NCBI GenBank assembly: GCA_036496605.1
Contig: DASXKV010000008.1
Span: forward strand, 1-64,000
Reading direction: 5' to 3'
DNA from: Gemmatimonadaceae bacterium
GTDB taxonomy: Bacteria > Gemmatimonadota > Gemmatimonadetes > Gemmatimonadales > Gemmatimonadaceae
DNA: 64,000 bases
The notes beneath the pieces were generated by a model. It was not told the DNA's origin. It saw only the letters and a program-made list of their open reading frames with translations, and searched no databases. The position numbers were made by a program, and so were the translations under genes. Below are positions 58,704-60,960 of the stretch, piece by piece; position 1 is the first letter of the stretch; each line of letters starts with the position of its first letter.

Positions 58704-59039
58704 CTACCTCACGCGCAAATCATCTCGCGTGATTTCGGGGATTGGGAGCGACTCACTGCTGACGGCAAATCGTTCCCGAGCGAGATCGGCAACGCGATCG
58801 CGCAGCTCGGGCGATGGCTTCTCGGCGCTGTAGAGATACGCGATGATCGATCGCGGGACGGCATCGTCGAAAATGCACCAGCGCGCGAGCCGCTGGCCGT
58901 CGATCGCGAGGCTGGAGCCGTTGCCATGTAGCGTCATCGCGCGTAGCCCGCGCTGACTGGTGTAGATCCAACACTCGGACATCACCCGGCGTGCTTCAGC
59001 GTAGTCCTGCGACGCGACGGCAATATTGGCAGGCTCCAT
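58704..59039 (-). CDS. Hypothetical protein
   Basis: 111 residues from ATG 59039. It starts MEPANIAVASQDYAEARRVM and contains IYTSQRGLRAMTLHGNGSSL and ARWCIFDDAVPRSIIAYLYS. A mixed alpha/beta protein is likely; no family is recognised. It is the only frame with normal codon use in this stretch. It lies between a barrel gene and the terminator of the rad52-like operon. Confidence 0.5.
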   Translation of the reverse strand: MEPANIAVASQDYAEARRVMSECWIYTSQRGLRAMTLHGNGSSLAIDGQRLARWCIFDDAVPRSIIAYLYSAEKPSPELRDRVADLARERFAVSSESLPIPEITRDDLRVR

Positions 59040-59130
59040 GTGCGCTCCGATGACACGGGAGGACGTAGGCGTCGTCCTCGTGTCCAAATATCGGACGCGC
59101 ACGGAGAATGTTGAGCGCGCTCTGAGCGGT

Positions 59131-59160
59131 AAAGGGCGGGAACTCGCTTCCCGCCCTTCA
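59131..59160 (-). terminator. Terminator after the rad52-like gene
   Basis: AAGGGCGGGAA (59132-59142) and TTCCCGCCCTT (59148-59158) form a perfect 11-bp stem with a 5-base loop, 8 bases after the stop codon of the leftward rad52-like gene. On the - strand it is followed by only a short T run. Confidence 0.65.
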
Positions 59161-59166
59161 CCAGAA

Positions 59167-59991
59167 TCAGAACGGAACCGTGTCCGTCTCGGTTTTCGTC
59201 GGCTCACTCTCCGACGCGAGCTGGAACTCGCTCTCGCTCGCTCCGGCATCCGCGCGTTGAGCTGCCTTGGCGGGCCAGATCACGCCGTCGCAGGAACGAT
59301 TGCGACACTTGTAATCCGGCGCCTTCGGATTGCGCTTCGAAAGACGGTTGTCCCACATGCGACCACCGCACTTCGGACAGCTCGGTTCGTCCAGCGCGAG
59401 CGGCCCCGTCGCCGGGCCGGGAAACGTTGTCTCTACGTGGACAGACTCGGTCGACGTCTCTTCGGTCTGCTCGGCGCGCCGGCGCTCGCGTGCCTCGAGG
59501 CGCGCCACGCGTCGCGCGTAAGCCGCCGCAGGGTCATCGAGCGGCTTTGCATAACGACCGTCGCCGTCGACCTGCACCCAGTTCTGCTCGAAGCCGTAGA
59601 GCTCGTGCGCGATGCCAAAGCGTACCGCGGCGCGCTTGAACGCATCCGTCGCCGCGGACTTGTAATCGCGTCCCGTTCCCACGTCCTCACGAATGACGCC
59701 GAGAATCTGCAGACGCGCCTTGAAGGAGCAGGTCTGCTCTCCGTTCTCATCCTGTCCGGCAAGAGTCGGTAACAGCTCGAGCGTGAGGTCCCACTCTCCG
59801 GGAACGACGCCGTCCAGCCGCTCGCGAACCGTGTTCGCGTCGATGTACGCGACAAACCGCGCGACGAATTTCCCATCGCGCAGGACCGGTTTGCCGTCCT
59901 GCCGCCAGGAGATCACGCCCGCGGGCAGGGGCGCGGAAAGCTTCGACCAGATGTCCATCTTTTCCATGTGTGTCTCGTGTCGAGCGATCAT
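59167..59991 (-). CDS. Rad52/Rad22-like single-strand annealing protein with zinc ribbon
   Basis: 274 residues from ATG 59991; ATG 59967 is an alternative. The Rad52-family core is VGTGRDYKSAATDAFKRAAV, then RFGIAHELYGFEQNWVQVD, preceded by LTLELLPTLAGQDENGEQTC. A linker (about 160-205) leads to a C-terminal four-Cys zinc ribbon: CPKCGGRMWDN and YKCRNRSCDGVIW. It resembles phage and DdrA-like bacterial annealing proteins, but a fused ribbon is unusual in those I know. It is coupled (ATGA) to a small Cys/His protein and controlled by an operator-rich promoter. Confidence 0.83.
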   Translation of the reverse strand: MIARHETHMEKMDIWSKLSAPLPAGVISWRQDGKPVLRDGKFVARFVAYIDANTVRERLDGVVPGEWDLTLELLPTLAGQDENGEQTCSFKARLQILGVIREDVGTGRDYKSAATDAFKRAAVRFGIAHELYGFEQNWVQVDGDGRYAKPLDDPAAAYARRVARLEARERRRAEQTEETSTESVHVETTFPGPATGPLALDEPSCPKCGGRMWDNRLSKRNPKAPDYKCRNRSCDGVIWPAKAAQRADAGASESEFQLASESEPTKTETDTVPF

Positions 59992-60383
59992 GCTCTCATC
60001 CCACCGTTGTTGGTTCGTCCACTGTGCTGCCTGTCAGCCATTCCAACCCGTTGCGCTTGTCCAACCGCCGGACATGCGACGCCGTGCTCGCAGTACCATC
60101 CGTGTCTTCGATCCAGAAAGACGAGGTGGGCTTTGGCCGCCCCGTCCGCCGTCTCATCGACGCGAAATAACCGCTCGACCGACGTACCCTGTCCGCACTT
60201 CTCCTGCGCGTTGAGCTCCTTCACCCGAAACTGCGCCGCCAGCTTCTTCGCCACGGCCGGCTTCGGTTTGGCGCGGCTGCGCCCGCGATCGCTCGGTCTG
60301 CTTCCTCCGCGAGCGCCGGTCTTGCGATCGGGCTTCCGCTTTTGACGCTTGTTGCTCTGCCCCGATTTGTTGACTCGCGACAC
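59988..60383 (-). CDS. Small basic Cys/His protein coupled to the rad52-like gene
   Basis: 131 residues from GTG 60383, chosen because AGGAG lies about 6 bases upstream; ATG 60398 is an alternative. The N-terminal 55 residues are very basic (NKRQKRKPDRKTGARGG). A compact region follows with EKCGQGTSVERLFRVDE, then HLVFLDRRHGWYCEHGVACP, offering Cys and His ligands for a metal. The stop overlaps the rad52-like start by ATGA, which supports both genes. No known family is recognised; a DNA-binding accessory role is inferred from charge and position. Confidence 0.65.
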   Translation of the reverse strand: MSRVNKSGQSNKRQKRKPDRKTGARGGSRPSDRGRSRAKPKPAVAKKLAAQFRVKELNAQEKCGQGTSVERLFRVDETADGAAKAHLVFLDRRHGWYCEHGVACPAVGQAQRVGMADRQHSGRTNNGGMRA

Positions 60384-60395
60384 CGCAACTCCTAT

Positions 60396-60469
60396 CATCT
60401 GTTACAGATGTAAGTATTGTTCGGGGTTCGTTCGGTATCATATTATAGAGGGCGTGTTACAAATGTCAA
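60396..60469. promoter_or_regulatory. Divergent promoters and paired operators of the rad52-like operon
   Basis: On the - strand TTGACA (60469-60464), a 16-base spacer and TATAAT (60447-60442) are perfect consensus boxes. On the + strand TTGTTC (60417-60422) and TATTAT (60441-60446) share the same -10 region. Box 1 is the perfect dyad CATCTGTTACAGATG (60396-60410); box 2, TGTTACAAATGT (60455-60466), lies between the - strand boxes and covers the regulator's start codon. Binding at both would repress both genes. Confidence 0.72.
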
Positions 60470-60960
60470 CCCGCCGAAAACGATCACAGGCAGACGCCCT
60501 CGGCTTCCCCGATCTGACGCCACTCGGAAAGCACATCGAAGTGCTTCGCATCGGACGAGGCCTTTCGAAACAGCGCCTCGCTCGCTTTGCCAGCACCTCA
60601 CGCCAGCAGATCTGGCGAGTGATGACGGGCAAGGCGGAGCTCACCGATTCGCTGCGGCAGCGGTTGGCCCACGCGCTTCAGGTGGCGACCTCCGAGTTAT
60701 CTCCGAACGCCAGCTCCCTCCCGAACGTTCGCGGCGCAACGACGCGAAACGCGCCGAGCATCGGTATCTCGCTCGAGACATATCTGGCGGCGCCAGCGCT
60801 CGCCGAGCGAACTCTGCGCACACTGCCTAACGGCGAAGCGGGACGCGAGCTCAAGCGGGCAATCCTCACCGCGCTCGAAGACCTCGCGATACAACATCAC
60901 ATCGCGCTGCCGGCGGAGTTTTTCGATCTCCGTCGTCGCGTCCTTACCGACGAGCTGTAA
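60463..60960 (+). CDS. XRE-type helix-turn-helix regulator
   Basis: 165 residues from ATG 60463. The N-terminal helix-turn-helix (about 23-80) reads LGKHIEVLRIGRGLSKQRLA, then RFASTSRQQIWRVMTGKAEL. The C-terminal 80 residues are mainly helical (SIGISLETYLAAPALAERTL) with no known ligand domain. It is divergent from the small Cys/His-rad52-like operon and its start codon lies in an operator copy, so it probably represses both directions. The absence of a LexA-type Ser-Lys protease pair means induction by RecA is not supported. Confidence 0.8.
   Translation: MSTRRKRSQADALGFPDLTPLGKHIEVLRIGRGLSKQRLARFASTSRQQIWRVMTGKAELTDSLRQRLAHALQVATSELSPNASSLPNVRGATTRNAPSIGISLETYLAAPALAERTLRTLPNGEAGRELKRAILTALEDLAIQHHIALPAEFFDLRRRVLTDEL

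Follow-up and report, generated by a model that had tools for sequence, protein, structure and literature searches.

DdrA of Deinococcus is a damage-induced Rad52-family protein under the XRE-type repressor DdrO (PMC1978522, PMC10904395), and of the described systems it is the closest counterpart of the locus analyzed here. A second comparison is offered by the phage single-strand annealing proteins of the Rad52/Erf type that carry a C-terminal zinc ribbon. On the regulatory side, the direct repeat GTTC-N7-GTTC is given as the LexA motif of Alphaproteobacteria in two studies (PMC8565304, PMC3323433). Many PF04098 proteins have also been recorded in Antarctic soil metagenomes, and the available text of that study holds no small-gene or operon context for them (PMC10140301).

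The locus studied here is a two-gene operon on the minus strand of a Gemmatimonadaceae contig, at positions 59127-60469 of the window (the whole stretch of 64,000 nt that was analyzed), with a divergent XRE-type regulator gene that ends at 60960 (Table 1). We read it, with a probability of roughly 0.7, as a chromosomally fixed, phage-type Rad52 annealase operon that would belong to the Gemmatimonadaceae SOS regulon. The DdrA system and this operon are alike in having a chromosomal bacterial Rad52-family annealing protein, damage control (here predicted) and an XRE-type repressor. The operon differs from DdrA in its predicted LexA box, its zinc ribbon and its co-operonic small Cys/His protein, and whereas DdrO is a global repressor, the XRE gene found here is private. 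The fold family and the ribbon are shared with the phage proteins, one phage copy (L050) being 61% identical; unlike those, however, the operon is host-chromosomal, sits at a fixed site and bears a host-type predicted LexA box, and its partner gene was not found in viral records. On this reading, a phage-type annealase would be held at a fixed host locus under a predicted host damage switch, much as DdrA is under DdrO, and an undescribed Cys/His domain family would travel with it.

Table 1. Positions in the window of the features of the operon and of the divergent regulator gene
Feature	Position	Strand	Basis
-35 hexamer TTGACA	60464-60469	minus	exact consensus
Operator 1, CATTTGTAACA, between -35 and -10	60455-60465	minus	exact pattern match
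-10 hexamer TATAAT	60442-60447	minus	exact consensus
Predicted LexA box CCGAACGAACCCCGAA, direct repeat with 11-bp period, over the predicted transcription start	60420-60435	minus	promoter alignment and lexA/recA/imuA comparison
Operator 2, 15-bp palindrome CATCTGTTACAGATG in the leader	60396-60410	none	contains exact CATCTGTAACA at 60400-60410
Small Cys/His protein, 131 aa from GTG 60383 (136 aa from ATG 60398)	59988-60383	minus	ORF and AGGAG
Rad52-family single-strand annealing protein (predicted) with C-terminal zinc ribbon, 274 aa	59167-59991	minus	PF04098, phrog_1097, fold match
Rad52 domain, residues 14-141	59569-59952	minus	profile match
Zinc ribbon CPKCGGRMWDNR...CRNRSCDGVIWP, residues 205-240	59272-59379	minus	conservation
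Terminator-like hairpin, 16-bp stem, no U-tract	59127-59163	minus	folding
Divergent XRE/HTH_31 regulator, 165 aa	60463-60960	plus	HTH_31 E 5e-7
Weaker predicted regulator promoter TTGACT-N17-TATCAT, overlapping operator 2	60370-60398	plus	consensus match only

From upstream to downstream, the promoter in the window consists of the -35 box, operator 1, the -10 box, the predicted LexA box over +1, operator 2 and the start codon. A preliminary description of this DNA, made from the sequence alone, had pointed to a perfect promoter that is rare in this GC-rich window, and this holds: TTGACA-N16-TATAAT is the exact sigma-70 consensus with a 16-nt spacer, for which 0.0005 sites would be expected by chance (first-order Markov estimate, window 64.2% GC). 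The same description had the two genes coupled by ATGA, and the stop codon of the small gene does overlap the start codon of the Rad52-like gene in this way (59991-59988). Of the terminator said to end the operon, the hairpin was recovered, with a strong 16-bp stem that starts 4 nt past the Rad52-like stop codon (folded stretch -42 kcal/mol, z -5.8); it has no U-tract, and the terminator scan did not pick it up at the 3' end of the Rad52-like gene. Since the U-tract is lacking, this hairpin may be a poor terminator, or it may shield the 3' end. Past it lies a 111-aa ORF (58707-59039) that is kept in the two nearest relatives and matched no Pfam family.

The Rad52-like protein matches PF04098 (Rad52_Rad22) with E 5.6e-10 and 39.8 bits (cut-off 20.3), and within PHROGs it is closest to Erf-like annealing proteins (phrog_1097, E 1.3e-17). 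Its structural model, of mean pLDDT 68, superimposes on human RAD52 (8bjm_A) with Z 10.2 and rmsd 3.3 over 127 aligned residues, and Foldseek gives E 1.5e-6 for the same comparison. The zinc ribbon (CPKCGG...CDGVIWP) is nearly invariant in 18 aligned sequences. The fusion of a Rad52-like protein to a zinc ribbon, as first described, is thus upheld by a profile score above the cut-off and by the conservation of the ribbon; we regard the product as a predicted single-strand annealing protein, which by its family would be expected to anneal complementary strands. The same ribbon was also seen in a Gemmatimonadetes genome (L048:3179-4243), fused to a protein that we take to be ATPase-like and that looks Sak4-like, and contig C2 of G017 (L125) holds further broken or diverged Rad52-zinc-ribbon pieces.

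For the small gene, the longest reading starts at ATG 60398 and gives 136 aa; GTG 60383 has an AGGAG in front of it and yields a product of 131 aa, the homologue in G001 starts at the corresponding point, and this GTG is most likely the start codon. The protein has a basic N-terminus, modeled with low confidence, and a core of 70 conserved residues, with H91, D96, GWYC103, H105-G106, C109 and A111-V112 invariant (136-aa numbering); we read the conserved Cys and His residues of the core as a putative zinc site. It had been described as belonging to no known family, and we found no match to one in Pfam, PHROGs or NCBIfam (25 members were scanned in Pfam and PHROGs). Structure prediction, which the preliminary description had proposed as a check, models most of the core confidently (pLDDT about 88-94), and searches against solved and viral folds returned no confident match; the best VIA row, SpoVG (Z 4.9, rmsd 3.9, 64 aligned), has several unrelated rows within 1 of it. 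By these comparisons the small protein represents a domain family not described before. SWIM-type zinc fingers consist of strands, then Cys/His, then a helix, and the model of the small protein has these elements too; it differs, however, in its CxHxxxC spacing, and we rejected a SWIM identity, as 0 of 25 members match a SWIM model at E <=1 in Pfam; the fold comparison was uninformative. Kinship with a 67-aa Cys/His gene located two ORFs upstream of the phage annealase was likewise dropped, with no Pfam match and no profile similarity.

The small gene and the annealase gene are found together. Of 99 genomes (that of the window and its relatives), 29 have a match to the small protein, 23 to the annealase and 9 to the regulator, 7 of the last being strong. 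Among 395 genomes of the phylum, the profile of the small protein matches 63, all of them Gemmatimonadaceae, and PF04098 matches 36, including 27 Gemmatimonadaceae. The first account would have been overturned if the small gene were not conserved next to rad52-like genes; it lies within 1 kb of the Rad52 match and on the same strand in 25 of these 27 genomes. Counted by Rad52 places in Gemmatimonadaceae, the small gene is within 1 kb on the same strand in 27/31, and upstream in 25 of those 27. The remaining two of the 27 genomes are G013 and G032, and in the latter PF04098 had found a paralogue and missed the Rad52-zinc-ribbon copy, which does adjoin the small gene. Stand-alone copies of the small domain were also observed (L110-L119), with CxxH spacing, no C68, unrelated neighbor genes and no Rad52; the box is absent in 10/10, which points to a further function of the small protein outside Rad52 and SOS.

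These ten loci without Rad52 are what one would expect if the small protein, instead of being a recombination partner, had a regulatory task such as countering the XRE protein as an anti-repressor or controlling translation, and its small size, basic character and conserved Cys/His would fit such a role. Yet it also adjoins Rad52 at loci in which we detected no XRE gene, such as L095, L096, L100 and L103, and it adjoins the diverged second Rad52 in L120 and L121. We therefore consider a regulatory function unlikely, and tentatively favor a partner of the annealase.

The alignment of Rad52 promoters uncovered a repeat that the preliminary description had overlooked: CCGAA-N6-CCGAA, which directly follows the -10 box. 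First spotted in these promoters, it was afterwards sought at lexA, recA and imuA (a RecA-like gene that we name by analogy) in 16 genomes; these are related (11 genera), and binomial p-values calculated over them overstate their independence. Two perfect repeats were found upstream of lexA1 in 16/16 genomes, a repeat with one mismatch upstream of recA, again in 16/16, and a perfect repeat at imuA in 7/8. The background is low, with a perfect repeat in 0/360 and a repeat with up to one mismatch in 12/360 windows of 460 nt drawn from 12 module-less loci. Exact matches in 14 genomes number 33, versus 6 for the reversed pattern, and the window has one perfect copy where 0.25 would be expected. 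At the promoters of two-gene loci the perfect box is present in 16 of 17; L104, which has both genes, is the sole case in which it was not found, and the box is reversed in L093, L102 and L105 (L106 and L107, whose contigs end inside the module, are left out of the box and synteny counts). In two genomes a second, diverged Rad52 comes with a small gene of its own, and a perfect box is present in 2/2 of these cases. The paralogue lexA2 has the repeat upstream in 0/14; this second LexA-type gene (L157 and other loci), whose locus was obtained for 14 of the 16 genomes, may use another motif.

Because two copies at lexA together with presence at recA and imuA are the signature of LexA autoregulation, we take CCGAA-N6-CCGAA to be the predicted LexA box of Gemmatimonadaceae, akin to the alphaproteobacterial GTTC-N7-GTTC. 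Both are direct repeats with an 11-bp period, and the other strand of the window copy reads GTTC-N7-GTTC; the half-site here, in contrast, is TTCGG. In the text available to it, a literature search found no LexA motif described for Gemmatimonas, Gemmatimonadetes or Gemmatimonadota, and the predicted box, with its core targets, would thus supply an SOS motif for a phylum where that search found none. The promoter of the operon bears the same predicted box as those of lexA and recA, as expected of a LexA regulon member, which supports the earlier idea of a damage-induced module. An interpretation of the repeat as a common promoter element, which arose from the many listed sites near unrelated genes, was dropped, since the motif is rare and marks lexA, recA and imuA. 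The presence of the repeat near genes outside the classical SOS set could also mean that another regulator binds it and co-controls lexA, recA, imuA and rad52. We judge this quite improbable, given the two copies at lexA in 16/16 genomes and the occurrence at recA and imuA; moreover, a repair-type gene, for example lexA or one for a radical SAM protein, is transcribed divergently from some of these unexpected genes.

The module has a common chromosomal address. An M20 peptidase gene, which we presume to be lysK because it stands beside asd, is found within 3 kb of it in 15/17 two-gene loci from many genera (there is no lysK near L100 and L101), and a GH125-like gene is located on the far side from lysK in most two-gene loci. 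In G015 the regulator and the box are kept and both operon genes are lost; in G033 the small gene is kept and Rad52 is absent. The shared address and these partial losses indicate a resident locus with losses rather than a mobile insertion. The distances between annealases follow those of recA+lexA loosely (Mantel 0.43 over 13 genomes, a value reached in 92 of 5000 permutations); the Rad52 and recA+lexA trees share five small clades, and part of the Rad52 tree differs. The phage annealase copy branches inside the chromosomal set or at its base.

The suggestion that the operon is a prophage remnant did not withstand the synteny analysis, and we rejected it on the conserved position beside lysK. 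There are reasons to weigh an origin in which the annealase, the small protein and the XRE repressor are what is left of a lysogen, or of the early region of a prophage: a 43-kb viral contig that also encodes terminase, portal, major head protein and DnaB has the 61%-identical Rad52-zinc-ribbon protein in its early region; the zinc ribbon is fused, in other viral contigs, to proteins that we take to be Erf-like by our own reading rather than by a scan; and the XRE regulator with its operators resembles phage repressors. However, besides the lysK address common to 15/17 two-gene loci, the neighbors examined are not phage genes (the M20 peptidase, Asd, an OMP-like protein and an ORF that we presume to be oxidase-like), and no integrase, att sites or structural genes were found in the parts of the flanks examined. 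No copy of the small protein was found in the 13 zinc-ribbon viral records, in the phage collection or by the viral-contig scan, and 16/17 two-gene loci carry a host-type predicted LexA box. Little likelihood is left to the prophage. The viral contig with the related annealase was seen to encode an RtcB-type RNA ligase as well (L234:63-1181).

The HTH regulator gene noted at the outset beside the operon is divergent and of XRE type, and its ATG shares bases with the operon's -35 box. The protein is conserved across 10 aligned sequences, its C-terminal half included; for that half, there was no informative PDB match. The two operators originally proposed, one between the boxes and one in the leader, turned out to be the only exact CATNNGTAACA sites in the whole window (CATTTGTAACA and CATCTGTAACA, respectively). 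Operator 2 is present in 8/10 loci with the regulator gene versus 0/11 without it (Fisher p 2e-4), a comparison in which the pattern had been built on the window sequence and its closest relatives, which leaves the 8/10 count not wholly independent, and in which 14 regulator-less loci were viewed and L093, L102 and L105, with the box in the other orientation, were excluded. In those 8 loci, 24-25 bp separate it from the beginning of the predicted LexA box. Of the 10 regulator-bearing loci, 6 have operator 1 between the hexamers, and the other 4 have a different arrangement there. Operator 2 is overlapped by the weaker promoter predicted for the regulator gene, so autoregulation is likely, and the XRE protein would repress its own promoter through this site. 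The regulator gene is missing from most module loci, and the second lock is therefore not general; the operon would answer to LexA and, in some lineages, also to a private XRE repressor. Overall, every feature that the preliminary description had reported was recovered, and the tight control first ascribed to a Rad52-like/zinc-ribbon operon is supported. A role in defense or counter-defense, with an XRE-controlled annealase acting against phages or protecting them, is suggested by a weak PADLOC capH match of the regulator (E 8.3e-6) and was set aside as most improbable, given that neither the small protein nor the Rad52-like protein has a PADLOC match, that no M78-type peptidase was seen near the regulator (HExxH scan of the window only), and that across the regulator family HTH_VI (10/10 members) and control protein (9/10) models score like capH (10/10), an unspecific match that does not single out a protease-cleaved repressor of the DdrO/CapH class.

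Comparison of the loci yields the gene content and its conserved order, the motif shared with lexA, recA and imuA, the fixed location and the link between operator 2 and the regulator gene; from these we infer repressor binding, induction, annealing and the partnership of the small protein. In undamaged cells, the consensus promoter would be shut with the help of LexA, on the CCGAA-N6-CCGAA repeat that covers the transcription start, and of the XRE regulator, on the two boxes that flank this repeat. Upon DNA damage, RecA filaments on single-stranded DNA would cause LexA to cleave itself, and the promoter would fire strongly. Oligomers of the Rad52-zinc-ribbon protein could then coat and anneal complementary single strands, for example where a break has been resected or a fork has collapsed. 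The basic Cys/His protein, translated along with the annealase, would be its partner and probably help to load it onto single-stranded DNA. The XRE protein would keep basal expression down, and could impose a second, higher threshold or reset the system. It is possible, although we advance it tentatively, that the small protein founds a new family of zinc-binding domains, dedicated to loading or mediating a phage Rad52 that has been domesticated, and that the operon provides the annealing branch of the Gemmatimonadaceae SOS response, that is, LexA-controlled, RecA-independent strand annealing with a second, private repressor and a DdrA-like function combined with SOS control.

Predicted LexA boxes were also observed at other genes. 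A protein with two annealase-like zinc ribbons and no Rad52 match (L122:7258-7935) has one upstream, and similar two-ribbon proteins in L123 and L124 have none. Two boxes lie between lexA1 and a divergent gene that we read as trpC-like (L163:1883-1997, G000 contig C14), so the trp operon may also be under SOS influence. Finally, a perfect box is located between a radical SAM gene (PF04055, E 5.8e-17) and a divergent PMT-like glycosyltransferase gene (L160:2518-4157, G000 contig C43), close to the imuA region, which has a separate box.
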